From Scilla litardierei (Eukaryota > Streptophyta > Magnoliopsida > Asparagales > Asparagaceae): 64,000 nucleotides of DNA. A program made the translations under genes and the position numbers. The stretch is taken from assembly GCA_030789695.1 (NCBI GenBank), contig CM061142.1:281349043-281413042 (forward strand), in the 5' to 3' direction. Each line of letters starts with the position of its first letter. Position 1 is the stretch's first letter. The notes below the pieces were generated by a model. The model had not been told where the DNA came from. It saw only the letters and a list, made by a program, of their open reading frames with translations, and made no database searches. Shown one piece after another: positions 2,146 to 38,996 of this stretch.

Positions 2146-2211
2146 CTAAGCTGGTGGTGCTGCGCCATCTCCGTCCTGAGGCGGAGGTGGGGGTGGTGGT
2201 GGCTGGGTAAC
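2146..2211 (-). pseudogene. C-terminal end of the outer ORF2, separated by the inner insertion
   Basis: If the inner element and one TSD are removed, the outer ORF2 frame entering at 13119 continues here through a run of prolines to a TAG at 2146-2148. The tail ends in a glycine- and alanine-containing stretch. It is separated from the rest of the ORF by 10.9 kb. The join rests on the perfect GTAAC duplication and uninterrupted proline-rich coding on both sides. Confidence 0.7.
2207..2211. repeat. Target-site duplication GTAAC, left copy
   Basis: GTAAC precedes the LTR starting at 2212 and is repeated exactly at 13115-13119 after the other LTR, proving a single insertion of 2212-13114. Confidence 0.95.
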
Positions 2212-2617
2212 TGACGTGCCCCCGGTTTGCAAGCCGCAAATGGCCGGGGACCCGGTGGAGGTTTAGATATTTGTAACCGCAAGCACACGGTGTTGTAGTG
2301 TGGCTTGGGGGTCGAACACAGGGAGGCTAGGATGTGCTTGTGTCAAAGAGGACCAAAATCACCCCGTGGGTGAGCTAGCCCAGATCGGATGATGGGTTGT
2401 CACGGTAAAGGAATGCAAGGTATATACAATATGAAGGAAAACCCGGGACTCTGGTTTCGACCCCCAACGAGCGGCTCTCGCCGATACGGCCTACGGGTAG
2501 GATGGCGATCGGAATTAGGGTATAATGGTGAGACGTTGCCTCTAAAAGTGGTACCGGCATCCCATGGGCCCGATATTCCGGTCGGTGCCCAGGATGATAC
2601 GCCGGACTTCCCAGGTA

Positions 2618-2655
2618 CGATCAGTGGGCACTCCCGTGTCCATTAACACTGATCG
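2618..2655 (-). other. Leader helix with compensatory change
   Basis: CGATCAGT at 2618-2625 pairs with ACTGATCG at 2648-2655. The related LTR at 21843-23512 has CGGTCAG (23063-23069) paired with CTGACCG (23094-23100) at the same place, so an A-T pair became G-C with pairing retained. Confidence 0.5.
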
Positions 2656-3157
2656 ACTCCGGGAGCACTAAGCTCGCAACGATAACTCCCAACGTTTCGT
2701 CCTGCCGCTCCCACGCGCTAGGATTCGGCGTCTACACTAAGGGCGTGAGCTATGGCTAGGGAGTCAACCGCCAAGTTTCATCCCCCTTGGCCCAACGGTC
2801 AAAAGCGGTCTTTTTCCCGCCGATGACAATAAAACACCCCGCGTAACCGTTAGATTCCTAATCCCTATCGATTTCCTAACCCTATGGACGCATCGGGAAG
2901 AGCCCCCGAAGGGCTTTCCGCCAAAATCCCGGATTTGGGAACTACTCACAAATATTCATAAAAAAGCGATCTAAATGAAAATGGACCGTCAAAATCATAA
3001 TCAGACAATAGAAATGCAATGGTAGTAAAGCAATTAACATAATACTAAAGTTTTACAAAGATCCGAAAACTTACAAAAACTGGAAAATTACCGCCGTCAC
3101 AAAATGAAGAAAATAGTAAAAAATAACCAACTCCCGATTCTGGGAAACCTAGGCTTC

Positions 3158-3165
3158 TATTTATA
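3158..3165 (-). promoter_or_regulatory. TATA box of the inner 3' LTR
   Basis: TATAAATA on the minus strand, about 10 bp downstream of the palindrome array. The 5' LTR has the same box at 12450-12457. Transcription would start roughly 30 bp further on, toward lower coordinates. Confidence 0.7.
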
Positions 3166-3175
3166 GAAAATGACA

Positions 3176-3572
3176 TCACCCGATCGGTTGACAAGTCAAC
3201 CGGTCGGGTGAGCCGCTTCACAAAATCACAGCGCAATGCGGGGGTTTCACCCGGTCAGTATGAACCGGTCGGTTGGAACTTGGTGCGGTCGGTTGGATCT
3301 TAGTGCCGACTGGTTGGATCTTGGTGCGGACCGGGTGAGGAGACCGGTTGGAGCTTCGAGTCTTGGCTGTTGAAATTCAGCTACAGGTGAACCGATCGGG
3401 CGAAGGTCACCCGATCGGTTGGAAATCAGTTTCGAATTTCCAGAGACTTTGAGCTTTTGACCCGATCACTGAACCGACCGGGTGACTTCTCGTGAGCTCC
3501 AAGATGCGTCCGGGTGGTGCACGCGTGCATCACCCGATCGGTTGGAGATGACCAACCAACCGGGTGAGGGGC
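3176..3572. repeat. U3 array of the ACCGATCGGT-type palindrome
   Basis: About a dozen half or full sites of the forms CACCCGATCGGTTG and CAACCGGTCGGGTGA lie within 400 bp, often as facing pairs (3176-3213, 3384-3421, 3530-3570). They sit directly upstream of the LTR TATA box. The same motif recurs at 7157-7505 inside the element and in the LTRs at 11504-13114 and 21843-23512. Confidence 0.85.
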
Positions 3573-3823
3573 TGAAAGATGCAATCTTCGTCGTTTGACC
3601 CCCTGGATCACGCGTGACTCCTCCCATTACTCCAGGGACACATGATATCATCGTTTTACGCCCCAAATGCCAGCAAACTCCTGCAAAACACGGAAAATAC
3701 GGAAAAGTGAAAGAAAACAAGAAAACACAAGAAAACACGAGAAAACGAATAAAAGACGACTGTAAAATACGGAAAAACACGGAAGAAAACATGCGTAAAT
3801 GTATGAAATATAAACGCACGTCA

Positions 3824-5465
3824 AAATCCCCCAAGCTGAACTCTTCCTCGTCCTCGAGGAAGACGAGTGAGAGTAGGAGCTCGGAGGGGAAAAACAGAGA
3901 GAAAGAGAGAAAAAGAAAACTCTATATCCTAGATCGCCCGTCAGGGCCAACAAAATCAAAAATGACACACAAAGCAATCAAACGCCAAATCACATCACCA
4001 AAACAAGGAGTACGAGTCCAGACAAGTGCCGTGGGCCCACGCGATGAAGCGCGAGTGAGTGTGGTCGTGCGCTAGTAGTCAGTGTCACTATCTACGATGT
4101 GCAATAAAGCTCGATATACACAAATCCAGGAAATGACCCAAATATCGATTCGAATTTGAAATTGCGGTGAATATTAGCTCAAGCATGCATGAGAAGAGTA
4201 TAAGAATATAAGCGTATCATGCATCGGGGACTCCACAGCTAGGGACAGGGAAATCACCACACTATAGCCTAGATAATAGCTAAAAAGTTCCTAAGCCAAG
4301 TGTTTTCGAAACCGATGGGGGTTGAGAAGATGTGGAGAAGAACACTCGGTGCAAATTCTCGCCTTCCCTTTATTCTCGGCAAGTAGGAAAATATTCACAC
4401 ATGAATTTTTTTGGGTTTTGGGTATTTGTATTTTTTTTTGGATTTTTGGCTAAACAAATTTTTTTTCTTTCTTTTCTCCTTTTTTTGGATTTTTTGATAT
4501 TGGGATATATACATGTGTACTCTCCCAAGTGGGAGAACGGTACACGACTAGGGGATTTGCACCAAGTAAAACAAAAAAGAAGTCGGAATCTAAACACTTG
4601 GGCAAAGGAAACTATTCTCGCTAAATAGAGCATGGGCTAAATGGGTTATCCTAGTCCTTAATTATGGAATCCCGACACATGCGAAACGAAGAGTACGATA
4701 TATATAGCATGCAGAAGAAGCAGACAGTAGAAATAAGTACCGCATATTCATATCGAAACATGATAATCTAGGGGTCATTCCTGGACAGATATATAAAGTG
4801 AATCACAAAGTAGAAGTACACCACACGGCTAGGCACGACACACAACTCACAAAAAGCTAAGTGGACCCACGATGCTTGAAATGCAAGAGAACTCGAAATC
4901 CTAGGGTTAGTGAATATGATTATCGATGCTATGCTAGGTGTGTGTGATTTTGTGGCAATTCATCATAGGGTTCATCTCTAGGAGAAAGAGATAAAAAGAA
5001 GAAAATAAAAAATAAAAACACGATGAAAACAGCACAAAAACGAAAAAGAAAGACTCAAATGGCGCACAAAGTGCGACTCCCCCAAGCTGAAGCTTGCATT
5101 GCCCTCAATGCAATAAGAGTGAGTACGGGAGGGCAATGAAAAGGGGGGGAATACGCACCGACACAAAAAGAAATGAAAAACGAGGAAAACACAGATACGA
5201 AACCAAAAATAAAGAAAAATGAAAATCAAACCACACGACACGAAAAACGAAAAAGAAAGAAGGAAATTGAACAAACAAGACGACACGACACGACACGACA
5301 AAAGGCACACGACACGATACGACAAAAAGGAAAAAAAGCACACACACACACACACAAAGAAAATAAAACACGACAACACATCAAAACAGACTTCTCCCAA
5401 GCTAGACATGACAATGCTAGCAATGAAATATTAGCGTGAAAGTGCAGAAATATGCAAGGGGTGTG
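3824..5465 (-). other. 3' noncoding region of the inner element, with polypurine-tract modules
   Basis: 1.6 kb without a credible gene. Minus-strand polypurine tracts lie at 3824-3837 (next to the LTR), 5076-5088 and 5391-5403. Each is followed on the plus strand by an inverted repeat: 3842-3863 (9-bp stem, loop TCCT), 5094-5113 (8-bp stem, loop CCCT) and 5401-5421 (5-bp stem). Simple repeats of CGACA (about 5281-5330) and CA (5339-5356) are also present. Open frames here, such as 4978-5409, are low-complexity. Confidence 0.7.
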
Positions 5466-6692
5466 TCAATCGGATTCGCTGGTACTAGAATGGTAGGGGG
5501 AGGGAGAGGAGGGTGGGGAATAGCGAATGAAAGAATCCTCAGAGGATGAGGAGGGCGTGCCTACAGGGGAAGGAGGGGCGACAGGCTGGAGCACGGGTGG
5601 ATCGATATGTACCGGTGGGCTGTGGTGGAGAAAGATTGTACCAGGTGGGCCGACAGTTGGGTGCCAATCAGGAGGATCCAAGGGTGGTAGATGCACTAAT
5701 GGAGAATACCAAGGATCGGGGTAAAACTCCCATGGCAGATGAGACGGGGGGTAGGGTAGCCGCAAAGGTGCTAAAGGTGGCAGGATTGCGAAAGGTGCGC
5801 AGGCGGGGCTATAGAGATAGACTGCACGGTCTTCACCGAAGGGAGTGAGCATATTGATATCGATCAAGTAATCACGATCAATACGGCTACGTCCAGGCAA
5901 AATTGGGAGGTCGGGCGGCACTCTCAAAACACAGCTGACAATAAGAGTGATCATCCCACCACAACAGATGGATCCAGAATTGGCGCGGCTAACAGCAAAA
6001 ATTTCGTGGATGATCCAATGAGCGGTGTTTATGGGCATAGGGATGTGCCTAAGGATCCTGTCTTCGGACATGGCATAGAGAAAGAAAAGCTCATCCCTAG
6101 ATACAGTGGACACATCCACGCGGGCAAAAACAGTGTTGGCGAGGATGCAATGGTCGAGGCGGTAACACGGGTGAATAATGTAGGAGGCAAGAGCCTCAGG
6201 TGGAAAGGCGGTGTACCGGGTAAATCATTACCAAACACCATCAGCCCGAAATTGAGAGTAGATGTCAGTTCGATCGTGGGTGGAATGTTCAGTATTAAGA
6301 TCGGGGTGACGGAGATTGAGGATATTGTTCAACTCGATGAAACCCAGAGAAAAATCGCAGTTGAAAGCACGGAAGGAGAAACCCCCATCAAACACCTCGA
6401 GGAAACTGAGGAATTCAAGCGTGAGATTTCTGTGTGTGTAAGCATGGATGTAAGAAAGGGTATGGCACCCGATACAGTTGAAAATTCTGCCGATGCCGTT
6501 CGAAAGCCCTAGAGCTTCGAGTGTGGGGCGATCGGCAAAGAGAGTAGGTCGCATCGGGTGATGAAGTAGTGCTCGTAAACGGTCAGACTGTTCTTCCGTA
6601 GAAGGGTTTATGCCAAGGAAAGAGGGCGAAAAGGGCCCGTAGAGCGGATCACGGCGTGAAGATGAGGCAATCTCTTTCCCTTTCTTAGACAT
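5466..6692 (-). pseudogene. ORF2 of the inner Athila-like element (protein in the env-like position)
   Basis: A frame of about 409 codons starting at an ATG at 6690-6692 and ending at 5466, broken only by adjacent TAA and TGA codons at 6225-6230. The N-terminal part is lysine- and serine-rich. A central region contains ICCGGMITL (near 5950-5970), matched by ICCGGLITL in ORF2 of the outer element. The C-terminal 150 residues are proline- and serine-rich. I see no signal peptide and no clear transmembrane segment. Athila elements carry an extra ORF after pol that is often called env-like; its function is unknown to me. It lies 450 bp downstream of an internal TATA box. The two stops can each arise by one C-to-T change. 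Confidence 0.6.
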
Positions 6693-7137
6693 GGCGACTA
6701 TGTTGGTGGCGAAAAGGAAAGTGGGAGCGTGCCTATGATGATTATAAAGCAGGTGAAGCAGGTATGACACCAATTCAGGACATTACAGATAAGGTAAGAG
6801 ATGTGTAGAGTGGAAAGGTGTTACCCATCAATGTAGCAAGATCAAGCTCCCGGGGGACTCGCGTAGTAGGAGGAAGCAATTCGGAAAGCCGCCGCTCGCT
6901 GATCCGACGAGAAACAGGTTTTCGAAAATTTTGGGGGCTAGGGTTAGGGTTTGGATGTTTTGATGATGGAATGTTGATGATGGCAAGGTGGCGAGGGTGG
7001 GGAAGTATGGGAGTGAGTGGGGATGAGGGTTTAGGGGCAGTATGTTGGATGGAGGAGGTCGATTCGACAGTTGGAGGGTGTGTAACCTCGTGAAGGGGAT
7101 TTTTGGGGGTCGGGTGGCGGTCATCGTGCGATAGGGG
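6693..7137 (-). other. Presumed untranslated leader of inner ORF2
   Basis: About 445 bp between the internal TATA box and the ORF2 start. A short open frame (6828-7124) is rich in pyrimidine-derived Leu, Pro and Ser and shows no recognisable protein. I read it as 5' untranslated sequence of an ORF2 transcript. Confidence 0.4.
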
Positions 7138-7145
7138 TATTTATA
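7138..7145 (-). promoter_or_regulatory. Internal TATA box upstream of inner ORF2
   Basis: TATAAATA on the minus strand, the same octamer as the LTR TATA box of this element (3158-3165). It lies 12 bp downstream of an array of the same palindrome found in U3. Position and shared motif suggest a separate ORF2 promoter. Confidence 0.65.
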
Positions 7146-7156
7146 GGGGCGAAACT

Positions 7157-7505
7157 GAACCGATCGGGTGAGTTCTCACCCGATCAGGTGGATGAATTTC
7201 GAAAATTTCCTGTCGGCCAACAGCTACAGGTGAACCGACCGGGTGAATAGTCACCCGATCGGTTGACCGCTTCCCAAATCTTTCCCGAGAACATGTGATA
7301 TTTCACCCGGCCACTCACCCGATCGCGATATTACTCAACCGATCGGTTGATGCGATCTCTAAATTTCCCGAAAGTTCAGCATTACCCACACGGTCAGCGA
7401 CCCGGTCTCGGCTATTGTCACCCGGTCGGTTCGTTAGGTAACTGATTCAGCCATTTAGCTGATACGTCCAAACCGATCGGGTGAGTTCTCACCCGATCAA
7501 TTGGG
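7157..7505. repeat. Internal array of the ACCGATCGGT-type palindrome before ORF2
   Basis: Facing pairs of ACCGATCGGGTGA and TCACCCGATCGGTT-type sites lie at about 7157-7191, 7231-7266, 7300-7350, 7386-7433 and 7468-7504. The first and last pair are nearly identical. The array lies between integrase and ORF2 and repeats the motif of this element's own U3. Confidence 0.85.
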
Positions 7506-7638
7506 GTCTTGTTTCCTGCAAAAAATGCACACATGGCATCAGTCCTCAACGGAAGTTTTTGCGGCTGGATTTATTTATCAGAAATAGATAAAATAAAGTT
7601 AGAAATAATTCCAAAGATTGGAGATAGAGATTTTAGAG

Positions 7639-7656
7639 CATGGGTTGCCTCCCATG
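7639..7656 (-). other. Conserved post-pol hairpin, loop AGGCAA
   Basis: On the minus strand CATGGG pairs with CCCATG around the loop AGGCAA. A TTAAAC...AGCGCTT sequence precedes it. The outer element has GTCGGG and CCCGAC around the same loop at 16292-16309 with the same preceding sequence, so three base pairs have changed in a compensated way. Confidence 0.7.
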
Positions 7657-7701
7657 AAGCGCTTTTGTTTAACGTCGTTCGCTCGACACCTATAGCGGTG
7701 G

Positions 7702-8323
7702 TCAATTAGGATCCGGAGGGTTAGAGGAAGAGTTGTCACTCGTTGGGGATCCGACCGGAGAGAATTCTGGTTCTCCAACCGCATAGTGTTTCAGACGCTG
7801 TCCGTTGACTTTAAACGGCTCATCCCTTCCCATTATCTCAATAGCCCCATGCGGGAAAACCTTGGTGACGCGGAACGGTCCCGACCACCTTGACTTGAGT
7901 TTTCCAGGAAAGAGCTTCAGCTTTGAGTTGAATAGGAGAACTAAGTCCCCTTCTTTGAATTCCCTCTTCAAGATTCGATTATCGTGCCACCGCTTCAGCT
8001 TCTCCTTGTAGATCTTGGCGCTCTCATAGGCATTGAGCCGGATTTCGTCGAGCTCGTTGAGTTGTAACTGCCGGTGCCCCCTACCTCCTTGGCATCGAAG
8101 TTCAGATTATTAATTGCCCAAAATGCCTTATGCTCCAATTCCACAGGAAGATGGAAAGCTTTCCCATAGACAAGCAGGTAGGGAGTCAGGCCGATCGGAG
8201 TTTTAAATACCGTCCTGTAGGCCCAAAGCGCGTCAGGAAGCTTCGATGACCAATCCTTTTGGCCACCGTCTTTTCTAGTATGCTTTTAATCTCCCAGTTA
8301 GAGACTTCTGCCTGACCGCTGGT
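7702..8323 (-). pseudogene. pol: Integrase C-terminal domain of the inner element, degraded
   Basis: The frame 7702-7971 encodes the basic gypsy integrase C-terminus: a [24 protein letters not shown] segment followed by WSGPF and the end of the protein. Between 7972 and 8323 the coding sequence is broken by stops and frame changes but still resembles the integrase core end, with the YHP-stop-TSGQ junction at 8324. It is the distal part of the pol reading frame of 2212-13114. Confidence 0.75.
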
Positions 8324-9244
8324 CTACGGGTGGTAGGCACGCCCCACCAGGTGTTGTACCCCGTATTTTTTTAAGAGGGCCTCGAATTTCTTCTCTATAA
8401 AGTGGCTCCCTCCGTCACTGATCAGGACACGAGGTACACCGAACTGCGGGAAGATGTTGCTTTTGAAGAACTTGGCCACCACTCTGGAATCATTCGTTGG
8501 ACTGGCCATCGCTTCAACCCATTTCGACACGTAGTCCACAGCCACCAAGATATACTGGTTCCCTGAGGAGGAAGGGAACGGTCCCATGAAGCCCACTCCC
8601 CACACATCGAAGATTTCTACCTCCAGGATGTAGTGTTGAGGCATCTCATTCCTTTTGGAGATATTCCCCGCTCTTTGGCATTTATCGCAGGCTTGGACAT
8701 AAGCATGTGTGTCCTTGAAGAGTGTAGGCCAGTAGAATCCGCTCTGGAGAATTTTTGCGGTGGTCTTGTAGGTGCTCGCGTGCCCTCCACATTGCTGCCC
8801 GTGGCAGTGGGAAATGATGGAGGTCGCCTCAGTTTCAGGGATGCATCTTCGTATCACCCCATCATTGCAGGTTTTGTATAGGTGGGGGTCATCCCAATAA
8901 AATTTGCGGACCTCATGAAAAAATTTCTTCTTCTGTTGAAAGCTCACATTGTGAGGGACGATGGCACAAGCCAGATAATTTACGATGTCAGCGTACCAGG
9001 GGGTCCAGGAGGAAGAGACAGAGAAAAGATGCTCGCCAGGGAGTGAATCATCGATCGGCGTAGCATTCAAATCGAGGGTAGGCATTCTGGACAGGTGATC
9101 GAAAACAACATTCTCCGCCCCCTTCTTGTCTCTGATTTCTAGGTTGAATTCTTGGAGGAGGAGAATCCATCTAATGAGCCGCGGCTTAGCCTCTTTCTTG
9201 CTCAATAGATATTTAAGAGCCGCGTGATCTGTGTGCACAATCAC
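8324..9244 (-). pseudogene. pol: RNase H end and integrase core of the inner element, catalytic Asp lost
   Basis: A 306-residue frame. It begins with the end of RNase H ([20 protein letters not shown], then the DHLSRM-like end). It continues with the HHCC zinc-binding region (histidines around HCHG and GGH; CDKC) and the integrase core. The first catalytic Asp is expected in a WG.DFMGPFP-type segment, but the sequence reads [10 protein letters not shown]; codon 8591-8593 is GGC where GAC would be expected. The second Asp is present in [13 protein letters not shown] at 8324-8326 cuts the frame before the third catalytic residue. The integrase of this copy is therefore inactive on two counts. 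Confidence 0.85.
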
Positions 9245-9265
9245 CTTGGCGCCAACGAGATATTG

Positions 9266-9487
9266 TCAGAACTTATCCATGGCGTAGATGACCGCTAGCA
9301 ATTCTTTTTCCGTGGTAGTATAATTTCTTTGGGCGGCATCAAGGGTTTTGCTCGTATAATATATGACATGAAGATTTTTATCCTTCCTCTGCCCCAAGAC
9401 GGCACCAACCGCATAATCACTAGCGTCACACATCAGCTCAAAGGGTAGATTCCAGTCCGGTGGCTGTATTATGGGCGCGAAAATCAA
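9266..9487 (-). pseudogene. pol: RNase H N-terminal part of the inner element
   Basis: A 73-residue frame with the RNase H start (LMCDASDYAVGAVLGQ) and the TTEKELLAV segment. It is preceded by a TAA at 9491-9493 and followed by a TGA at 9266-9268, after which the frame continues as QYLVGAK. Both stops fit single C-to-T changes from CAA and CGA. It is part of the same pol frame as RT and integrase. Confidence 0.85.
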
Positions 9488-9490
9488 AGC

Positions 9491-10984
9491 TTACTTCAAA
9501 GTGCGGAAGGCCTCCATACACTCCTCGCTAAAGACGAAAGGCACGTCCTTCACGAGGAGTTGGGTCAGCGGCCTGGAAATCTTTGAGAATTCTTTTATGA
9601 AGCGGCGATAAAATCCTGCATGTCCTAAGAAACCATGGACTCCTCGAAGATTGAGCGGTGGTGGAAGCTTTTCAATCACCTCAACTTTAGCCTTATCAAC
9701 CTCGATTCCCCTCGAAGAGATGACGTGCCCCAGCACAACTCCTTCTTGGACCATGAAGTGGCACTTCTCCCAGTTGAGAACTAATCCCTTTTCTTGACAT
9801 CTCTCCAGGACTTTAGTTAGATTACTGAGGCACGAGTCAAACTTAGTTCCATAGACGGAGAAGTCGTCCATGAAAACCTCCATGATGTCCTGGGAGTAGT
9901 CGGAGAAGATAGCGGACATGAGTCTTTGGAATGTAGCAGGGGCGTTACAAAGTCCGAACGGCATTCTTCTATAGGCATATGTCCCGAATGGGCAAGTGAA
10001 AGTCGTCTTCTCCTGGTCATCGTTATGAATAGGGATCTGAAGAAATCCTGAATACACGTCCATGAAACAGAAATAATTATGCTTCGCCAGTCTCTCGAGC
10101 ATCTGGTCAATAAAGGGGAGAGGGTAATGATCCTTCCTCGTTGCCTTGTTCAGCTTTCTATAGTCAATGCACATCCTGTACCCCGTGACGGTCCTCGTTT
10201 GTATTAGCTCGTTCTTCTCGTTGCGAACCACCGTCATTCCTCCTTTCTTGGGTACAACGTGCACCAGGCTAACCCAGCGACTATTGGAGATAGTGTATAT
10301 AATACCGGCATGTAGAAGCCTAACAATCTCCTTTTTTACAACTTCCATCATTATGGGATTTAGCCTCCGCTGTGGCTCAATCGAGGAGGCTTGCTCATCT
10401 TCAAGCAGAATTCTGTGTGAGCAGAGGCCTAAGCTAACCCCTTTTAAATCTTCAATTGCATATCCGAAAACTCCTTTAAACCTTTTTAAAACACCAAGAA
10501 GTTTGGTCATTTGGTCTTCAGGCAGTGAGGAGTTCACTATGACTGGAAGGGTCGAGCCCGCCCCCAAATATTCATACTTCAGCCCCGGGGGTAACTCTTT
10601 CATCTCAACTTCATGAGGCCCCGACGCATACTTCTCAAGCTGAGCATCCTCAAGGGAAAGGAGTTCTTCGTGGATTTCTTGGAAGCCAGCATCCAGAATC
10701 TCACTCCCAGCCGCGGTTCCGCATGGCAAAGTTTTGCAAGGTATTGTGGGAACGATCAAGGAAGGCACTGGGTCTCTTTCAAGCTCATAATAATTGTCCG
10801 GGAAGAAGGCTTCTAAGTGAAAACAGGTTTCAACCGTCGATGGTTCCCCACAACTGTTTCTAGCTTCCTCATTGTCCAAAGATCCAGGATGCTCGATAGA
10901 AATCTGCAAGGAATAGATCGGTTCCTGTCCAACATAGCCCACAGACTCAGCCTGATGGTTCTCCTGATAAAACTCCGCGAACAA
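9491..10984 (-). pseudogene. pol: Reverse transcriptase of the inner Athila-like element
   Basis: 497 codons. The N-terminal 150 residues are the linker found after protease in Athila-type pol (SPDNYYELERDPVPSL-like). The RT core follows: YRMCIDYRKLN, YPLPFIDQMLERLA, PFGLCNAPATFQRLM and the active-site segment VFMDDFSVYG, with both adjacent Asp residues intact. The frame ends at TAA 9491-9493 just before RNase H. No protease precedes it; the frame is joined upstream, through a TAG at 10985, to a short leader ORF. The RT core itself looks uninterrupted. Confidence 0.92.
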
Positions 10985-11218
10985 CTATTCTTCACTAAAT
11001 TCGGTACTAGGAATGTCGATATATGCCACTTCACCATGAGGAAAGAGAGTTGTCGTGGCAAGGTGCTCCAGCGTATCTCGATATCTCCTCTGATTTTCCA
11101 CGGCGGCAGACAGGAGGGATAGTATATTCGAAGTATTCAGGGATTCCACTAAGCTTCGTGCCAAACAGCGGATATGGTGTGAGTGATCCCAGATGTCTCC
11201 TGAAACTGCATGCAACAT
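10985..11218 (-). CDS. Short leader ORF replacing gag and protease in the inner element
   Basis: A frame of 77 codons, in phase with pol and separated from it by one TAG (10985-10987). It lies where gag and protease should be, only about 260 bp from the primer site. I see no gag, zinc-knuckle or protease motif. It may be a short remnant fused to pol by the deletion that removed gag and protease, or chance coding. No function can be assigned. Confidence 0.4.
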   Translation of the reverse strand: MLHAVSGDIWDHSHHIRCLARSLVESLNTSNILSLLSAAVENQRRYRDTLEHLATTTLFPHGEVAYIDIPSTEFSEE

Positions 11219-11479
11219 CCTCGCCGTGGGGCAAAGAACCTATACGAAAGGAGAGATAGAACTGCACAAGTAGCAAACACGTCAAAAGCACGGGTTGCAT
11301 AAACGGGAACCGAGAGTAGCGATGGTAGCACGGCGATTCAGTCAATTAGCACTATACAATTACTATCTACAATATGTACAAGTGAAATTGAAAAGTGTAG
11401 AGTGCGAAAATTATTGCGAGGTAGGGATAAGAGCTAGACACTAGGGTTCATGAGATCCTAAAATAACAAGCACGTTGCC

Positions 11480-11497
11480 TACCCGGCAACGGCACCA
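11480..11497 (-). other. Primer-binding site of the inner element, tRNA-Asp
   Basis: Minus strand TGGTGCCGTTGCCGGGTA, six bases inside the 5' LTR. It matches the complement of a plant tRNA-Asp 3' end (TGGCGCCGTTGCCGGGGA) with two mismatches. Confidence 0.8.
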
Positions 11498-11503
11498 TAA
11501 ACT

Positions 11504-13114
11504 TGACGTGCCCCCGGTTTGCAAGCCGCAAATGGCCGGGGGACCCGGTGGAGGTTTAGATATTTGTAACCGCAAGCGCACGGTGTTGTAGTGTGGCTTG
11601 GGGGTCAAACACAGGGAGGCTAGGATGTGCTTGTGTCAAAGAGGACCAAAATCACCCTGTGGGCGAGCTAGCCCAGATCGGATGATGGGTTGTCACGGTA
11701 AAGGAATGCAAGGTATAGACAATATGAAGGAAAACCCGGGACTCTGGTTTCGACCCCAACGAGCGGCTCTCGCTGATACGGCCTACGGGTAGGATGGAGA
11801 TCGGAATTAGGGTCTAATGGTGAGACGTTGCCTCAAAAAGTGGTACAGGCATCCCATGGGTCCGATATTCCGGTCGGTGCCCAGGATGATACGCCGGACT
11901 TCCCGGGTTCGATCAGTGAGCACTCCAGTGTCCATTAACACTGATCGACTCTGGGAGCACTAAGCTCGCAACGATAACTCCCAACGTCTCGTCCTGCCGC
12001 TCCCGCGCGCTAGGATTCGGCGTCTACGCTAAGGGCGTGAGCTATGGCTAGGGAGTCAACCGCCAAGTTTATTCCCCTTTGGCCCAACGGTCAAAGGCGG
12101 TCTTTTTCCCACCGATGACAATAAAACACCCCTCGTAACCGTTAGATTCCTAATCCCTATCGATTTCCTAACCCTATGGACACATCGGGAAGAGCCCCCG
12201 AAGGGGTTTCCGCCAAAATCCCGGATTTGGGAACTACTCACAAATATTCATAAAAAAGCGATCTAAATGAAAATGGACCGTCAAAATCGTAATCAGACAA
12301 TAGAAATGCAATGGTAGTAAAGCAATTAAGATAATACTAAAGTTTTACAAAGATCCGAAAACTTACAAAAACTGGAAAATTACAGCCGTCACAAAATGAA
12401 GAAAACAGTAAAAAATAACCAACTCCCGAATCTGGGAAACCTAGGGTTATATTTATAGAAAACGACATCACCCGATCATTGACAAGTCAACCGGTCGGGT
12501 GAGCCACTTCACAAAATCACAGTGCAATGCGGGGGTTTCACCCGGTCAGTATGAACCGGTCGGTTGGAACTTGGTGCGGTCGGTTGGATCTTGGTGCCGA
12601 CCGGTTGGATCTTGGTGCGGACCGGGTGAGGAGACCGGTTGGATCTTCGAGTCTTGGCTGTTGAAATTCAGCTACAGGTGAACCGATGGGGTGAAGGTCA
12701 CCCGATCGGTTGGAAATCAGCTTCGAATTTCCAGAGACTTTGAGCTTTTGACCCGGTCACTGAACCGACCGGGTGACTTCTTGTGAGCTCCAAGCTACGT
12801 CCGGGTGGTGCACGCGTGCATCACCCGATCGGTTGGAGATGACCAACCGACCGGGTGAGGGGCTGAAAGATGCAATCTTCGTCGTTTGACCCCCTAGATC
12901 ATGCGTGACTCCTCCCGTTGCTCCGGGGATACATGATATCATCATTTTATGCCCCAAATGCCAGCAAACTCCTGCAAAACACGGAAAATACGGAAAAGTG
13001 AAAGAAAAAAAGAAAACACGAGAAAACACGAGAAAACAAATAAAAGACGGCGGTAAAATACGGAAAAACACGGAAGAAAACGTGCGTAAATGTATGAAAT
13101 ATAAACGCATGTCA
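11504..13114 (-). repeat. 5' LTR of the inner element
   Basis: A 1611-bp copy of 2212-3823, with the palindrome array at about 12469-12862 and a TATA box at 12450-12457. A few percent divergence from the other LTR is visible by eye. GTAAC follows at 13115. Confidence 0.95.
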
Positions 13115-13119
13115 GTAAC
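13115..13119. repeat. Target-site duplication GTAAC, right copy
   Basis: Exact match to 2207-2211. Confidence 0.95.
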
Positions 13120-15135
13120 AGTCTGTTGGGTGGGTGGTGGTGGGGGTGGTGGTCGTGGAACAGTCTGCTGGGTGGGTGGTGGTCGTGGCAGTCGCTCGAG
13201 AATCTGGGTCAGGCAAAAGTGAATGCCGGGAAGTAGCTCGAGGCGGTGCTGCATGGCGGTGACTGTGGAAGACAGAGCCCTAAAATTGCCCCGGAGTCCA
13301 CTCATCGCCCCCTCAAGAGCGCGAATGCTCTGAACTAAGGCGTCAGGGGGTGGTGGAGCGGAGGGACGGACAGGTCTAGGCTGAGTAGGTCGGGGCTGTC
13401 TAATACGGGTAGTGTAGGTGATCGGGACAGCAGGCATGGGTGGTAAGGGTGCTGTGCTCACTAGTGGATGCCCAGCCTCAGTGCGAGGCTGGGACGCAGG
13501 CTGGTGTGAGGTGGAAGCAGCAGCAGTGGAAGTGGAAGACAAAATCAGTGACGAGGCAGCAAGAGAGGTCAGTGACACAGACGTGGGAACAGACGTCACG
13601 ACACTCTCAGATAGAACAGCTACGGTGGAGACCGAAGGGTCGACCGCTGGGGAGGAAGCGTGGGGTCCAAAAGGTGAAACCCCAACGGATATCAAAGTGG
13701 ATAGGGTCTCCACGACGGAAGCAAAGGAAGGCTCGCCGCTCTCAACTATAGAAGGTGGACGCTCGGGTAGTAGAGAGGTGAGTGGCTCAACCGACAGGGG
13801 CACAGCAGTGGTGGTGGTGGTAAGCGTGGTGGTAGGCGTGGAGGATGGCTCAGCAAGTGTACTCCCGACACTGGCAGAAGTGGGGACAGAAGTGTCGGGA
13901 GCGGCAGAAAGTGCAGGCTCAGGCTGAGGGAACACATGGTCTATAGGTGCAGGGGGTGCCTGCTCAGCCTCCTCGGCCTCAAGCATGTAGGCGGCAGGGA
14001 TCAGAAGATCCATCGCCGGAAGCCAGTCCTCGTGTGCTGGTCCTATGTGTGTCCGAGCGGGGCTCGGGAGGATCACGTAGTAAGCACCGAAAGGACCGTG
14101 CAACCATACCCAGTGTCGCTAGCCGTGCGGACGAAGCATCTTCATCCGGGACATGACGTCTATCGAGAGTGCAGTGGGGCCCGAAGGTCGACGCAGGTCA
14201 GCCGGAAGGTCCTCACCGGTCATCAGGGCTAGCAGGGTGATCAGGCCGCCGCAACATATCGGGGAGCGAGCGCCCACCGATATGATGATGCGGTCCAAAA
14301 ACCAGCTAGCGACGTCAATCTCAACGGCGGGGACCATCGTAACACCATCCCTATCCAGAACTCTGGGGCGAGTCATCGCGTAGAGCATATAGAGCTAAGG
14401 CGTAGACATTGTCCCAGGCTCGTACATCGCTAGAAAGGTGGTCGCCATAAGGCGCTGTGCTATGCGGAGGCAGTGGTGGACTATGGCCGAGGCCTTGGCC
14501 CTACTAGGGTCAAAGGCCTGTGGTAAACCCGTGATCCTGGCCCAAAAGGCATGTGAATCGAAAGATGGGGGAGGGATGTGTGTGTGGGCGTAGGCTCAGT
14601 CGGGCGTGGGGACTGCGGGCCACTGAAAGAATGCTCGAAGCATATCGAGAGTGATCTGACACTCTCGATCCATAAGTCTAAAGGAGCATCCCTCAGCGGT
14701 CCGGGCGATCGAGCTGAGTACCTCGAGTGTAGGACGGACGTAGGTGTCCGCCGACACAGAAAGAAAGTCTCGCCAACCCACGTTGTCATACAACGTGAGC
14801 ATCCCCTCAAGTACCCCCAGGCGGTCTAGGTCAGCTAAATGGGCGAGCCTGGAGGGTACTATCAGGCGCTGGGCGATACGCTCAAATCAGACACGCTGTG
14901 CCTCGTCTCTGAACGTAATCCCCAGCGGCCCGACAACGGGAGCCGGTGGTGGCTGTGCATGAACGAGATCGGCTGGAAGTGGATGTGGGTGGGCGGGGTC
15001 GGCTGGAAGTGGCTGTGTGGGGTGAGGTGGTGACGGTGGTGGGGAGTCCTCCCTAGCATGGGAGAGGCCGGGCTCATCCGTCCACTTCTGCTTGGCGGAA
15101 TCTCCCCGAGTGCGTGGCTGTGTACGGGGCGGCAT
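13120..15135 (-). pseudogene. ORF2 of the outer Athila-like element, main part
   Basis: Starts at an ATG at 15133-15135 with a proline- and histidine-rich N-terminus. It continues through a region with ICCGGLITL near 14240-14260, shared with ORF2 of the inner element, into a long Ser/Thr/Pro/Ala-rich tail. The tail is cut at 13119 by the inner insertion and resumes at 2211. In-frame stops at 14887, 14596 and 14119, and more damage near 14400-14590, make it a pseudogene; the three named stops fit C-to-T changes. No signal peptide or membrane anchor is evident. It lies about 530 bp downstream of an internal TATA box and palindrome array. The function of this protein class is unknown to me. Confidence 0.55.
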
Positions 15136-15663: not shown

Positions 15664-15671
15664 TTATATAA
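15664..15671 (-). promoter_or_regulatory. Internal TATA box upstream of outer ORF2
   Basis: TTATATAA, 10 bp downstream (on the minus strand) of an array of ACTCGGCCGAGT palindromes that repeats the motif of this element's own U3. Confidence 0.6.
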
Positions 15672-15680
15672 GTGAAGTTA

Positions 15681-16024
15681 CGACTCGGCCGAGTGACTAA
15701 GTCACTCGGCCGAGTGATCGTAACGAAGAAGTTTTTAAAACTTTCTCCCTCCACTTACGACTCGGCCGAGTGGCTTTGCCACCCTCGACCGAGTGGAAAA
15801 AGTCCATTCGGCCGAGTGGCACAAGCTACTCGGCAATTTTCGCCCTAGGAGTGTATCAGTTTCACTCGGCCGAGTGAAGAAGTATACTCGACCGAGTGGC
15901 AGTTTATACTGAAATCACAAAAAAAGACAGAGAGTTAGGTACAGCAGACTTCCCTCGTTGGTGCGCCACTCGGGCGGACGGCTTTCTTTGCTCGGCCGAG
16001 TGACTATGGTACTCGGCCGAGTGG
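15681..16024. repeat. Internal array of the ACTCGGCCGAGT palindrome before ORF2
   Basis: At least eight full or near-full ACTCGGCCGAGTG sites lie between 15681 and 16024, with degenerate ones such as CTCGACCGAGTG. They precede the internal TATA box. The same palindrome forms the U3 array at 20401-20800. Confidence 0.9.
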
Positions 16025-16291: not shown

Positions 16292-16309
16292 GTCGGGTTG
16301 CCTCCCGAC
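16292..16309 (-). other. Conserved post-pol hairpin, loop AGGCAA
   Basis: On the minus strand GTCGGG and CCCGAC pair around AGGCAA, preceded by TTAAACGAGCGCTT. It is the counterpart of 7639-7656, with three compensated base pairs and an identical loop. Confidence 0.7.
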
Positions 16310-16447: not shown

Positions 16448-17176
16448 TCAGCGCCCCTTCGTCATGGGCAATGTTGGGGGGTGGCTTCCCCAAGCTAGAG
16501 CTTGCTCCGGTTTCGACTTTGTCGGTGACACCGATCGTCGTATCGGTGGAGCTTTCTTCGGAGTCCTCAACTTCGAGAGCTTGCAGAGCTCCCGTATTCT
16601 TGCGACATCAGCGTCACCATCATCAATTGCCATGGAGATATCGGGGGAGTGCTCCATCTTCTCTTCTTCGGCAAAATCTTGGCCTTCTTCGAAGCTATCT
16701 TCGTGGGGTGCGCCGATGGAGTGGGGTATTGCCGCTTCAATGACCTCATCAAGGAGGTCCATGTAATCTAGCTCCTCGTGATACAGCATGTGCTTCATTG
16801 CCTTCGGTATATGAAGCTCCACTTCGATGTTGCCGACGTTCAAGGTAAGGATCCCCACCCGTACATCGACGATGACACCGGCGGTGGCGAGGAATGGGCG
16901 TCCAAGTATGAGTGATGTATCGCCCTCCTCCTTGATGTCCATTATCACGAAATCACATGGCAAACATATGCCTCCCGAAACTTGGAGTGGGATGTCCTCT
17001 GCAATCCCAACCAGCCTTGTAATCCACCCGTCCGCTAGTTGAATCCGCATGTCGGTAGGCTTTAAATCCGTGCCGGTATTCAACTTCCGGAACATGGAGA
17101 GAGGCATGAGGCTAACACTAGCCCCCAAGTCTACCAATACTTTTTGTAGGGGGACGCCGCCTAGAGTGCAAGGAAT
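16448..17176 (-). pseudogene. pol: Retropepsin-like protease domain of the outer element
   Basis: An aspartic protease domain follows gag in the same frame: the active-site segment LVDLGASVSLMPLS (DLGA in place of DTGA or DSGA) and the ILGRPFL motif about 80 residues later. The C-terminal 100 residues are charged linker. The frame ends at 16448, where RT should follow. Instead the sequence passes into the post-pol hairpin about 120 bp on, so RT, RNase H and integrase were deleted. A TAG at 17177-17179 separates it from gag. Confidence 0.85.
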
Positions 17177-19117
17177 CTAGAAACTTCCCGGATCTTTAAA
17201 TTTGGCGGGCTCCTTCTCTCTCTTTGTGAACCAAGTCCCTTCCTCCGCGAGCATTATCTTCTCCTTCCTCTTCCTTCCCGTGATCAAGTCCTTTAAGAAC
17301 TTGGCGTAAGATGGGATTTCCACTAAAGCGTCGAGGAAGGTGATATTGAGGCTCACCCCTCTCAAATACTCGAGAAACTTGGCTAGCCGTTTCTCCATCT
17401 TGGCTCTAGCTAGCCGTTGAGGGAAGGGCACCGGTGGCATAAATCGGCGCTCATCAATAAGCTCCTCCATTCTAGATTTTCCTCCTTCTTGCGGCTCCTT
17501 CTCCTTTACCACTTCAATTACCGGCTCGCTTTCTCCTAGATTCTCCACCACTGGCTCCTTGTCTTGAGTCATGGGGGGAGTAGTATCCTTCCCACCTCTT
17601 GTTGTAACCGCAACGACCGCATTGATATGGCCGGTGTTGCCCCGTGGATTCGGCTCGGGTTGAGCCGGCAATTGTTGATTGTTTTTATTGAGCAACGCAA
17701 TTTGCTCCCCAATTTGAGCGACGACGGTGGCGAGAGAATCTTGTCCCGCCTTCAACGTGGCGTTGATCTTTCTTTGTTCCGCCATAAACTCCTCCACCTT
17801 AGCTTCAAAATTCGGACGTGGTTGAGCTTGCGAAGGGTTGGGATTTCTCCACCCTTGATTATACCCGAGTGGCCTATAAGGTCCCACTTGTTGCCTCGGT
17901 GGGAAGTTTTTTTGCGGTGGCCCCCTTGGTGGATAATTTGGTTGTGGTGGTGGAGCCCGGGCTTGAGGAGGTTGGTGTTGCGGGGGGTTCAATACACCAT
18001 CATTATTAGCATATGAGAAACCCGGATGGTTTCTAGCGGCCGGATTGGCCCAATATCCAGAATTCCCCGCGGCATATTGGATTTGCTCCAAAGCTCCTTC
18101 TCCTTGCTCTCCTCCTACATACATGGATTGGGATTGGTCTTGCCAATCGCTCATATGATTTGTCGGCGTGGATGTAGGAGGGGCTCCTTGAGGCTCCGTA
18201 ATGAATTTCTCCAATCTCTCCACTACCTTGTGGAGAGAATCAAATTTGTTGGCTAGCTCCACGACGGCCTTGGCCTCATAAATGCTAGACGGCTTCAAGG
18301 AGGACGAAGAGTGTCCTCGCTCGTCGCCCCACTGTTGGTTGTTCGAGGCCATCTCCTCAAGCAAGGCCGTAGCTTCATTGGGATTCTTCGACAAAATGGC
18401 TCCATTTGCGGTGGCATCAATAATCTGCTTCGTGCCCGGTTGGAGTCCATTGTAGAAACTGTGGACAAGCTCCCAATCCGCAATGCTATGATGGGGGCAT
18501 TGATGTTGTAAGTCCTTGAATCGCTCCTATGCTTCATAGAGAGTCTCTAGTGGTCCTTGCTTGAAGGACATAAGAGCACTTCTTATCTTCACCGTCTTGG
18601 AGGGCGGGTAAAATTTGTCGACGAAGGCACTCGCCAACTCATCCCAAGTGGTGAAGATTCCTTCAGCTTGCGTCCTCAACCAATATAATGCCTTGTCCTT
18701 GAGTGTGAAAGTGAAGAGGCGCAGTCTGATAGCATCCACGGAGACGCCCGGCATTTGGAAGGTGGCACACTTTGATAGGAAGAGCTGGATGTGGTAATGA
18801 GGGTTTTCATGGGAGTTCCCATGAAAAGGATCTTGTTGCATAAGAACCACCAATCCGGTCTTCAACTCGAAATTTTTGTCGGCCGCCAACTCCGGCATGG
18901 CTATGGACGAGGTCGTGGAAGAAGTCTTAGGTCGAAGCCTATCTCTTATGGAAATAATCCTTGCCATTCGCGCTGCCAATTCTTCGGGTGTCTCAGGATG
19001 GGTCATAAAATTTCCTTCCGTAACGGGTCTCCTCTCCGCTCGGATCCTCCTCAATGTACGCTCGATCTCCAGATCGTATAGTATCTCTTCGGGGTTCGCC
19101 GAGGATCTCGTGTACAT
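17177..19117 (-). pseudogene. gag: gag of the outer Athila-like element
   Basis: The frame starts at 19117 and contains a plant gypsy gag core: LRLFTFTLKDKALYWL, then TWDELASAFVDKFYPPSKT and the LYEA segment. It is followed by a Gln/Pro-rich linker (17820-18010) and a C-terminal region that leads into the protease. One TAG at 18527-18529 replaces a likely Trp (YEA-stop-ERF), and a second at 17177 lies at the gag-protease boundary; both fit single C-to-T or G-to-A changes. No zinc knuckle is visible, as is usual in this lineage. The product would be the particle-forming structural protein. Confidence 0.88.
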
Positions 19118-19254: not shown

Positions 19255-19621
19255 AAAACTTGGTCGCACTCCAGAGACACGTCCCGGAGCGGCGACACTG
19301 TAGTCTTACCGCAAGCGCACGGTGTAGCGACGAGCGGGTATCGAACACAGGGAGGCCTAATAACAGTGTCTTCTTCAATCACCTGGCTATAAGAATAGTC
19401 GAGAAATGTTCGCAAATATGCGGTCACAGTCGTTCAAATGTATAAAAGAAATAACAAATTAATAAAGACGCTTAGGGGATAGGGAATCCCCGCTACTTGC
19501 TGTATCTCATCATTGTGATTCGTAGGTTTCACAATTGCTAGACTTGAAATTCGTGTGACCTAGTTGCAACTAAATGTAGAACCAAGCTCACGCTCTCGTG
19601 CTATTTCCGGTCTATAGCAAA

Positions 19622-19936
19622 CCTAGGGTAGGGTCCAATCTCTTGCAAACCCTAACCTAGGCAAGCTAGCGTAAAGAACAACATCATCGTTCAATCTTAT
19701 CTCGAGCCCACTCTCATGCAAACTCGAGCTACGACCTAGGTTGGGATAGTTCCTACCCGTCCAATCTCTTGCAAACAGGTATTGGTATAGAATTGCAATC
19801 GAAAACCCCAGTTTCGGTCCAATCTCTTGCAAACCGATTCCGGAGGAATCCAATTGTAACCCAATTCGAATTTCTAGGGCTTCCTATCGAGTTGGGATCC
19901 AATCTCTTGCAAATCCCAATCGGTATGAATCCCTAG
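19622..19936 (-). other. Five hairpins with variable stems and one constant 14-nt loop
   Basis: The plus-strand loop CCAATCTCTTGCAA occurs at 19635-19648, 19761-19774, 19819-19832 and 19899-19912, and a variant (CCACTCTCATGCAA) at 19708-19721. The flanks pair each time with different sequence. Unit 1 pairs 19622-19634 with 19649-19661 (12 of 13 pairs). Unit 2 pairs CTCGAG with CTCGAG (19701-19706, 19723-19728). Unit 3 pairs 19754-19760 with 19775-19781 (6 of 7). Unit 4 pairs TCGGT with ACCGA. Unit 5 pairs TTGGGAT with ATCCCAA, plus an outer CTAGGG/CCCTAG. The region lies in the transcribed leader. Confidence 0.75.
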
Positions 19937-20309
19937 CTATTCGTATTAAATCAATCCCAAACTAACCCTAATCAATCCTAGCAATAGTTTCACCAATTCA
20001 TCACAATTTTGAAATTGGGTTCGTAGGGTTCATCCCTACGTCCTAAGACGATGAACTACTCACAATTCATAATCAAATTCAATAGAAATTCACAAGTAAA
20101 ATGAATGGAATTCATATCAATATTCAATAAATCAATAAAAATGGAGTTTTTGAGAGAGAGAGAGACAAACCAATGAAGAACAAGATAGCATCCAACAAAA
20201 TCTCACTTTTCTCTCCTCCCTAAAAGCTAAATATAATTCCTAAAAAGTCAATCAAAAAAGGCTGCAAAAAGTTCTGAAAAAGCTCCCTAAACTAGGTTAA
20301 AAACTGGGG

Positions 20310-20316
20310 TTAAATA
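20310..20316 (-). promoter_or_regulatory. TATA-like box of the outer LTR
   Basis: TATTTAA on the minus strand, about 85 bp downstream of the palindrome array. Confidence 0.5.
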
Positions 20317-20400
20317 CCCCCCAAAATCGCCCAAAAAAATCCTGACGAAAATGCCCCTGCGCAGCCTCAAAATCGCAGTTTACGCTACAGGCAGCGCGGC

Positions 20401-20800
20401 TCACTCGGCCGAGTGACAAATGTCACTCGGCTGAGTGAGAGACCCTGACGGATTCCAGAGAGTTGGGGGTCTTGGGGGGTCGTCTCCTCGGAGGTCACTC
20501 GGCCGAGTGACTTTTCTTCACTCGGCCGATGGGCGTTCTTCACTCAGGCGGACGACGTTGGTCACTCGGCCGAGTCGGAGCTTGGGACTGTACAGACGAA
20601 AAACAGAGAGTTTAGCATCTTTTGTTGTCGTCGTCTTGGCTCCACTCGGGCGAGGGATGACTCGGTGCTCGGCCGAGTGGTCTGGCGATGCTCGGCCGAG
20701 TGCACGCTGATATTAGCCTTGTTGCGTGTCCGATCTGTTCGGCCGAGCGGGCTGTCTATGCTCGGCCGAGTGACTCCTTCACTCGGCCGAGTGGCATGCG
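20401..20800. repeat. U3 array of the ACTCGGCCGAGT palindrome
   Basis: About ten copies, including TCACTCGGCCGAGTGA at 20401-20416 and 20495-20510 and a one-mismatch copy at 20423-20438. Degenerate copies such as TTCGGCCGAGCGG lie toward 20750. The motif is the same as in the internal array 15681-16024 and is not seen in the inner element. Confidence 0.9.
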
Positions 20801-21087
20801 TAAAATGCCCATTCTTCATGTTTTTGCCTCCTCGTCGCTCCTACGACGTTCTTTCCTTTTCCACTCCTCTCCAATCGCAATACCCCTCAAGAGAGTCGTC
20901 GGTGACACTCCGGTGTGGGTGCATCTCAGAATCACTCCAAATCACTCCAAATCTCCTGAAATACGACAAAAACAACAAATCGTGAAAAGCATCGCAATAT
21001 TGTCGAATAAATGTGAAAAACATGATTTGAGCGATCTAAATGGCATGCAAACATGCGGAAAAAAAGGTGTAAAATATGGAGTGATCA

Positions 21088-22089: not shown

Positions 22090-22543
22090 CACCCAATCGG
22101 TTGGACACAGCCAACCGATCGGGTGATGTACGCGTGCACGACCCAGACACCAGCTGAAGCTACGAGAGCATCAACCGACCGGGTTGCCGACCGGTTCAAC
22201 CCGACTAACTTCTCGGGAAATTGAAGCTGAAATCCAACCGATCGGGTGATCTTCACCCGATCGGTTCATCTGTAGCCGTTTTCTCGAAGTGATGACCCGG
22301 AGAGCTCACCCGGCCGTCAGTAGACCGTGCCAAAACTTCCGAAGTCTCTGTCTTTTGGGCAAAAATTCCAACCGATCGGTTGATTTATCAACCGATAGGT
22401 TCACTCGACGACGCTCAAGATCCAAACGACGAGCAGCTTCCGCCAACCGACCGTGTCACCTGACCGGGTGAAATTTTGAAGATTGCTGCCGAAGTTCGCA
22501 GCAGGTCACCTGATCGGATGATTCTTTGCCCGATCAGGTGATG
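22090..22543. repeat. U3 array of the ACCGATCGGT-type palindrome
   Basis: Sites such as CAACCGATCGGGTGA (near 22112), TCACCCGATCGGTT (near 22253) and TCAACCGATAGGTT (near 22388) lie upstream of a TATATATA box at 22552-22559. The motif type is the same as in the inner element. Confidence 0.8.
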
Positions 22544-30079: not shown

Positions 30080-30483
30080 TGTTGCGTATTGGACTCCCCG
30101 GATTTGGTTTTGGATGATGAGCAAACATAAATATATCATGAACTAACAGTTTGTGAGCGCAGTTATGGAGATCGTTGCCAAAATACCACGTACAACAAAA
30201 GCGACGTCTCAAGACTTCTCAATACGCGTAATCGTATGCCTGGAGCTTCGTTGAAGCTCAAGGAGCAATATTGAAGTCAAAAGGAATGAAGATTGAAGCT
30301 TTGAAGACGGCTCGTAAGGTTTATTTCATAGTCTTCTAGCTTCATAGATTAGAATGTTAAGCCTTGAGTAGGACTTACCTTATAACCTTCATTTCGCTCA
30401 TATCTTAGAGCTAGGATTATCATAGAAGCCATTAGAAACTTTCCCGAAGCCTAACGCTCTTTCCCTCGGCTTCTAGTGCATGT

Positions 30484-31015
30484 TAGTTGGTTCATGAAGA
30501 GTAACCAACCGACTAGATGACGATCTAGTCGGTCGGAAACTCTACTTAAACCGACTAGTTTGCATTCTCTAATTCAGCTCTTTCTTTGACTACAGTTAGT
30601 CGGTCAAAGAAGAGTCACCGACCGACTAGATGACGATTTAGTCGGTCAGTAATCCTTCTTAGACCGACTAGTTGTGTTCACTCATTTTCAGCCTGAGCTA
30701 CTGTTTCGAGTTAGTCGGTCAAAGAACGTTTACCGACCGACTAGTTGAGAAACTAGTCGGTCAGAATTTGTTCTTAAACCGACTAAGTCATCTTGAAGTC
30801 AACCTATCCTATTTCGACGTTAGTCGGTCAAAGATCATTCACCGACCGACTAGTTGGGAAACTAGTCGGTCGGCAAGTCTTCTTAGACCGACTAGTTGTC
30901 TTTGCCTGGAACTTCACCTTTTGGCTGTTCAACCGTTAGTCGGTCTACGTTGTATCACCGACCGACTAGTTGATGAACTAGTCGGTCAGTGATCCTTCTT
31001 TGACCGACTAGTCTG
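30484..31015. repeat. U3 tandem repeats built from the palindrome ACCGACTAGTCGGT
   Basis: Five units of about 112-120 bp starting near 30484, 30596, 30711, 30830 and 30935. Each carries up to four copies of TAGTCGGT or its complement, arranged as facing pairs, upstream of the TATA box. Confidence 0.88.
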
Positions 31016-31065
31016 GTTCAGAATAGAGCCGTTGGGATCTTTTTGAACTCGTTTTTCCTTGCCCC

Positions 31066-31073
31066 TATAAATA
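31066..31073 (+). promoter_or_regulatory. TATA box of the solo LTR
   Basis: TATAAATA about 50 bp after the U3 array. Confidence 0.7.
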
Positions 31074-31430
31074 GAATCCTGATTCATTTCTTGAAGGGGT
31101 TAAGCAACATATTGGAGATATTTTCAGATCAAAAGAGAAGAGCTATCAACTCTATTTCCAAGCTCTCTCTTCTCACAAGAATCTCTCCCTCAAGTTCTTG
31201 AGTCATATATCCTCAAGAGAGATTCTCTCCATTGTGAGCCTTTCAAGCTAGAAGCTTGATTCTAGGTCACCATCTCCACCCTAGGCTTCCATTGCTGGTC
31301 ATCTTCTTGAAGCTAGGGTTTGGTGCCATCTTCCTCCATCAAAATCCTCTTTGCCCTAATTTGGTAAGAAATCTCAAGGCATAGGTATTTTGTTGGTAAG
31401 CATTTCATTTCAGTTATATTTGAATTGTAT

Positions 31431-31579
31431 ACTCTCGGTTGTGAGAGTTTGCGTGATCCCGGGTTGTGGGAATCACGGATATCGATTGTAGGTCGATTGC
31501 ACTTGTGAGGTTTTCGCAAGTGGGCATAGTGGAAATCTTGAGTTAGTGTTTCTAACTCAAGTATCCGGAAGGGATCCGG
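31431..31579 (+). other. Six consecutive leader hairpins, solo LTR copy
   Basis: In order: ACTCTC/GAGAGT (31431-31448), GTGAT/ATCAC (31453-31476), ATCGA/TCGAT (31481-31497), a 9-bp stem with loop GGTTT (31500-31522), CTTGAGTTAG/CTAACTCAAG (31537-31561) and CCGGA/TCCGG (31565-31579). Each has a counterpart in the same order at 34774-34926. Confidence 0.75.
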
Positions 31580-38994: not shown

Positions 38995-38996
38995 TC

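Follow-up and report, generated by a model that had tools for sequence, protein, structure and literature searches.

The window, i.e., the whole 64 kb stretch of DNA analyzed here, contains an Athila element on the minus strand (the outer element), which is interrupted by a second, younger Athila (the inner element) with GTAAC present on both of its sides, at 2207-2211 and 13115-13119. Two arrays of a short palindrome, ACTCGGCCGAGT, lie in the outer element, one in the U3 of its LTR and one between its aspartic protease (AP) region and its ORF2. The features of the locus are collected in Table 1.

Table 1. Elements, coding regions and palindrome arrays in the window, in window coordinates
Feature	Position	Strand	Details
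Outer 5′ LTR, TG...CA	19261..21087	-	first 203 bp a 95% match to window 1-203 (other LTR)
Outer U3 array	20403..20792	-	10 ACTCGGCCGAGT sites (4 exact)
Outer gag region, broken	17177..19117	-	PF03732 match in ORF 18527-19117
Outer AP	16448..17137	-	weak Pfam match, E=0.003; relative L002 above cut-off
Short hairpin GTCGGG/CCCGAC, after AP and upstream of array	16292..16309	-	identified by reading
Outer pre-ORF2 array	15683..16022	-	9 ACTCGGCCGAGT sites (5 exact, ≤2 mismatches), grouped at 21-23 bp
TATA box TTATATAA of predicted internal ORF2 promoter	15664..15671	-	
Outer ORF2	13711..15135	-	tblastn 87% over 475 aa to ORF2 of relative L004
Inner Athila, inserted in outer element	2212..13114	-	LTRs about 2209-3823 and 11500-13114, 95.8% identical
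Inner 5′ LTR U3 array	12472..12854	-	motif as in 7160-7500
Inner pre-ORF2 array, CCGATCGG-type palindromes	7160..7500	-	TATAAATA 14 bp downstream
Inner 3′ LTR U3 array	3180..3563	-	
Third Athila, U3 array with inner element's motif	22093..22537	+	5′ LTR from 21842
Third-motif array ACCGACTAGT / ACTAGTCGGT in solo LTR	30508..31016	+	upstream of TATAAATA at 31066

Element anatomy and palindrome arrays in the window

Examination of the outer element demonstrated that gag and AP are present and that pol is missing, with no RT or integrase found between AP and the array in the window copy, and no PF03732 match found in the 17177-18394 stretch of its gag region. The original prediction placed a post-pol hairpin upstream of the array; the hairpin is there, but since gag and AP lead straight to it and this copy has no pol, it is a post-AP hairpin. 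The outer ORF2 does not form a single open frame across its whole length in the window copy, and in the intact relative L004 the ORF2 matches PF03078 (ATHILA) above the Pfam cut-off (E=5e-11). We assign the outer element to the Athila lineage on the basis of this PF03078 ORF2; a Retrotrans_gag domain and an integrase (INT) resembling that of the inner element, where INT adjoins RVT_1, also set it apart from Ty1/copia Sireviruses. Most of the other outer-family copies listed by the genome search align from query base 316, i.e., window position 13115, the first base past the inner element.

The inner element contains RT, RH and INT, as well as an ORF2 stretch matching PF03078 (E=1.7e-9), and no gag ORF was found in it. 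The ORF2 copies of both elements in the window are broken. The two elements had been described as independent, which does not hold, as their integrases are 75% identical over 161 aa; their ORF2 products are 29-33% identical.

Allowing at most two mismatches, we found 19 matches to ACTCGGCCGAGT across the window, all of them in the two outer arrays; dinucleotide shuffles gave a mean of 1.63 matches and a maximum of 5, and none of 100 shuffles reached 19. This confirmed that the internal array is built from the palindrome of the element's own U3, and the predicted distance of about 10 bp to the TATA box was measured as 11 bp from the last internal site to TTATATAA, reading the minus strand. Ten ACTCGGCCGAGT sites are likewise present in the second LTR of the outer element, which lies immediately outside the window on its left. 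The outer core is CGGCCG, and the two outer array regions have CpG observed/expected ratios of 1.11 and 1.12 and GC contents of 0.48 and 0.53. The sites occur in pairs or threes, with 192 of 251 successive spacings below 60 bp falling at 21-24 bp (≤3 mismatches per site), i.e., about two turns of the helix.

The two elements do not share 12-letter sites, as predicted. With at most two mismatches allowed, the outer motif had no match in any of the six inner regions examined, and the inner motif, AACCGATCGGGT, had none in the five outer regions; the shorter 8-letter cores, allowed one mismatch, do turn up a few times in the other element (0-3 per region). The orientation of the inner core, CCG-AT-CGG, is reversed relative to the outer one. 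A stricter dyad scan (≥5 exact per 500 bp) picked up the outer arrays along with a tandem repeat of 90 bp, and missed the inner and solo-LTR arrays.

Further copies of the two families

Our search of the genome identified at least 39 other copies of the outer family, and we examined 20 of these (17833 first-look candidates, of which 40 were scored, including the window copy). All 20 contain both arrays, with 8-10 sites in each; a TATA box is located downstream of the internal array, at offset 12, in 19 of 20, and TATTTAA is located 84-87 bp downstream of the U3 array, again in 19 of 20. A single stray site was present in one of the 20 copies, and exact CCGATCGG was present in none of them.

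For the inner family we sampled nine copies out of 92 PF03078 matches in the genome, and all nine belong to the inner motif family, so no third family was obtained. A pre-ORF2 array is present in all nine and a U3 array in eight; the ninth U3 piece contains zero sites, and one other U3 piece is inverted. A TATA box lies about 15 bp past the internal array in all nine copies (distances read off the sequence ends). Of the eight copies with a U3 array, seven have a TATA box 14 bp downstream of it, and the inverted piece gave none. The outer motif had no match in the 18 pieces taken from these nine copies.

Constraint on the array letters and explanations for the matched arrays

In both families and in both places, motif columns have diverged less than the spacers between them. 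For the outer family, divergence was 0.054 in motif columns vs. 0.090 in spacers before ORF2 (2 of 338 circular shifts as good), and 0.053 vs. 0.120 in U3 (0 of 387); the corresponding values for the inner family were 0.091 vs. 0.147 (3 of 456) and 0.085 vs. 0.259 (2 of 365). The U3 contrast is one with the spacers, since the U3 flank outside the array has diverged as little as the U3 motifs (0.062 vs. 0.059). Within the outer pre-ORF2 palindrome, the centre letters vary most and the outer letters least.

Analysis of CpG changes separated private changes, present in one copy only and taken as mostly post-insertion, from those shared by several copies. Private CpG transitions were similarly frequent inside and outside the motifs, at 26 of 1493 motif cells and 60 of 3875 other cells (p=0.63), and shared ones were depleted in the motifs (15 vs. 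180 cells, p=1e-12, with cells that are not independent of one another). Counting any change at CpG columns as events, private:shared ratios in the outer family were 32:7 in motifs vs. 82:73 elsewhere (p=0.0009), and in the inner family 23:4 vs. 50:35 (p=0.019). With all columns taken together the difference was retained (p=0.01 outer, p=0.04 inner), and non-CpG motif columns alone gave no significant difference (p=0.76 outer, p=0.47 inner). Broken sites therefore form at the usual rate and seldom spread, a pattern that points to selection acting through transposition. The proposal that the arrays are functional is supported by the retention of both arrays in all 20 further copies, by each TATA offset in 19 of 20, by the lower divergence of motifs than of spacers, and by the depletion of shared CpG changes in both families.

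We consider it likely that the region 15664-16024 is a second, internal promoter for ORF2, in which the nine ACTCGGCCGAGT palindromes would be paired sites for a dimeric activator that also works the U3 promoter. This reading is based on what was observed: matched arrays that precede a TATA box, occur in 20 of 20 further copies, have their sites paired at two helical turns and their letters under constraint, and recur in the inner family in an equivalent layout with another palindrome. Protein binding to the palindromes, initiation of an ORF2 transcript at the TATA box, and the action of a single factor at both promoters are the steps we infer. A dimeric DNA-binding factor would then occupy the paired palindromes in the U3 and pre-ORF2 arrays and drive the LTR promoter and the separate ORF2 promoter together; this factor could come from the host or be encoded by ORF2 itself. 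A switch to another factor would then require an element to change both arrays, which would leave each family with its own motif in both places. The co-evolution of the two promoters put forward in the original prediction is consistent with these data, and is suggested rather than proven, because the motif families sampled are two in number and share a common ancestor.

The match between the arrays could instead have arisen by copying: template switching or gene conversion would have moved a piece of U3 into the internal position of its own element, and descent would account for the shared motif without a common factor. We regard this as rather unlikely. Alignment of the motif-masked arrays of the inner element in the window scored 37 against a shuffle maximum of 23, with one block of about 45 bp, and in 14 of 20 outer copies the masked forward similarity exceeded the shuffle maximum (reverse, 0 of 20); copying may thus account for some of the match. 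However, this similarity is weak (scores of 21-35 in the 20 outer copies), all eight inner relatives tested were not above the shuffle maximum (one tie), and the outer element in the window scored 23 forward against a shuffle maximum of 26, its reverse score of 29 being marginally above a maximum of 28. Moreover, the letters are still under selection afterwards, and copying could explain the origin of the second array but not its upkeep.

A role in RNA, with the palindromes forming hairpins in the genomic RNA (for translation, packaging or export) or feeding host small-RNA silencing, appears decidedly improbable to us. The array RNAs do fold well beyond shuffles (z of -9.6 and -6.95), and in maize Sireviruses small RNAs are drawn to the palindrome clusters, according to the accessible part of a later paper reporting Bousios 2016 (PMC10760457); good folding is, however, expected of any palindrome array, and only 1 of 277 pairs deviating from the canonical motif was compensated on both sides, so it is the letters rather than the stem that seem to be kept. 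The position of the arrays relative to the TATA boxes and the 21-24 bp pairing also point to DNA. We give very little credence to the arrays being a mutational by-product, either a functionless satellite-like expansion or a region whose CpGs are preserved by local protection from methylation. Retand elements do carry tandem-repeat arrays between pol and the 3′ LTR in about half of those surveyed, as far as the accessible text of PMC11963269 describes them, but in the Athila arrays private CpG transitions are not rarer in the motifs, which gives no hint that the sites are shielded from mutation; it is the shared transitions that are depleted, with the event counts agreeing, and the two arrays stand at fixed places in all 20 further copies.

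ORF2, related systems and other arrays

The internal promoter that we favor would serve an ORF2 whose own features can be examined across the family. At least one stop lies within the ORF2 frame in 15 of 20 outer copies. In the five copies with a full N-terminus and at least 440 residues, a basic stretch, KRK or KRKR, is present at residue 15 and looks like a nuclear signal; no strongly hydrophobic segment was found in these five frames (top 19-residue means of 1.51-1.93), and one other long reading frame reaches a 19-residue mean of 3.17 near its end. A search of a protein database with the outer ORF2 gave no match at E 0.001 among 8000 scored candidates, and a scan of viral contigs with the integrase found no relative.

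Loss of pol is common among the outer copies for which upstream flank was available: AP directly precedes the array, without integrase, in 9 of 10 (the one in the window plus eight of the other nine), and INT is present in the flank of 1 of 10. With the inner element lacking a recognizable gag ORF, the two sister families thus show complementary losses. In one outer-family copy (L004:31-1545), integrase stands in place of the protease and connects to the protease region's tail. Across seven pol-less copies, ORF2 pN/pS was 0.55 in frame (bootstrap 0.44-0.71), against 0.91 (0.72-1.22) and 0.79 (0.60-1.07) for the two alternative frames; for all 20 outer copies it was 0.48 in frame vs. 0.94 and 0.97. 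The pol-less copies are taken to derive from one loss, a working assumption rather than the result of a tree, and if loss was frequent the constraint on ORF2 could predate it. The retention of ORF2 and its array after loss of pol suits a product that helps its own carrier element.

The function and expression of the env-like gene of plant retrotransposons is a long-standing question, and the matched sites at the predicted ORF2 promoter, the signs of selection, and the constraint on ORF2 without pol point away from an envelope role. As a tentative proposal, which we hold to be possible and not the likelier outcome, ORF2 might encode a nuclear, family-specific DNA-binding regulator (a transactivator or anti-silencer) that recognizes the element's own arrays and forms a positive loop on the LTR and on its own internal promoter. 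A split between families would then bring joint change of motif and ORF2, much as is seen for VANC and its motif in VANDAL elements, and elements without pol might keep ORF2 for protection or activation in cis.

The two-place design has already been published for Sireviruses (Ty1/copia). In the accessible text of Bousios et al. 2010 (PMC2829016), the RM (repeated motif) boxes are element-specific palindromes with a CGG-CCG core, found 8-32 times per element and for the most part in the LTR's upper half, ahead of the TATA box. An envelope-like gene is present in 9 RM elements (of 13), and in these further boxes stand upstream of it; an internal envelope promoter was already proposed there, and RM boxes were called Sirevirus-specific. 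The outer Athila likewise has at least eight palindromes in the U3 half of the LTR before the TATA box (10 sites) and extra copies upstream of its env-like gene (9 sites), and its CGGCCG core fits the Sirevirus one, whereas the inner CCG-AT-CGG is turned round. Unlike Sireviruses, the outer element is a Ty3/gypsy Athila, i.e., it has arrays that work like RM boxes and is not a Sirevirus. What is new here is the occurrence in Ty3/gypsy Athila, the paired switch of motif between sister families, and the selection test, the latter two being absent from the accessible text of PMC2829016; among the open-licence papers listed, no title or opening of an abstract describes such arrays in Athila. If one factor reads both arrays, the same layout would be present in two superfamilies, Sireviruses and Athila.

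Like the VANDAL elements of Arabidopsis, Athila carries family-specific arrays of short motifs in noncoding parts of the transposon that differ between related elements. For the VANDAL/VANC anti-silencing system, the available portion of Hosaka et al. 2017 (PMC5735166) describes demonstrated VANC binding and loss of methylation, arrays that vary together with the element-encoded protein, and a non-palindromic VANC21 motif, YAGTATTAY; VANDAL differs from Athila in being a DNA transposon with a motif that is not a palindrome, and the Athila ORF2 is known here from its sequence. Retand, also Ty3/gypsy, resembles the outer element in that it has additional ORFs and that its stretch from pol to the 3′ LTR often contains repeat arrays, and its extra protein is predicted to bind DNA; unlike Athila, its ORFs are antisense (TRP28), its repeats are in tandem, and the accessible text describes no palindromes matched to U3 (PMC11963269). 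In addition, a sunflower methylome study reports, in the text available, an Athila clade with a drop in LTR methylation and leaves an Athila-encoded factor as a question (PMC12844716).

Other arrays and elements in and around the window were also noted. The tetramers TCGG/CCGA occur at 17.8-33 per kb in the array regions of the window, where control tetramers occur at 1.8-6.9 per kb; this only says that the motifs contain a half-site in common, differently arranged, and since these letters are partly built into the motifs, the excess is no proof of a common factor. The solo LTR at 30080-31800, which has TATCT on both sides and sits within a PF20167-type ORF, carries a third palindrome arrangement immediately ahead of its TATA box. 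Our search of the genome with PF20167 gave 150 matches, from which seven upstream-of-ORF pieces were taken; none of the seven elements (two of them 89% alike) has a dyad array before its env-like ORF at a threshold that detects all nine inner pre-ORF2 arrays, and the array is therefore not tied to every env-like gene. Two of these seven, L054 and L057, we take to be Ty1/copia from RNase H motifs in their translations; a Pfam search of the two gave no match. In the 40 kb to the right of the window, pol matches were 24-35% at best and no dyad cluster was present; a large inverted repeat (L032:3142 to L035:716) is also located right of the window, with arm pieces about 87-96% identical and its centre near the start of L034. 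Within the window, a Retand-like element with an antisense Transposase_28 ORF occupies 37928-45620 and contains 90-bp tandem repeats at 40826-41635, and a near-perfect inverted repeat (98%), with 221-bp arms and a 4-bp gap, lies at 28100-28545.
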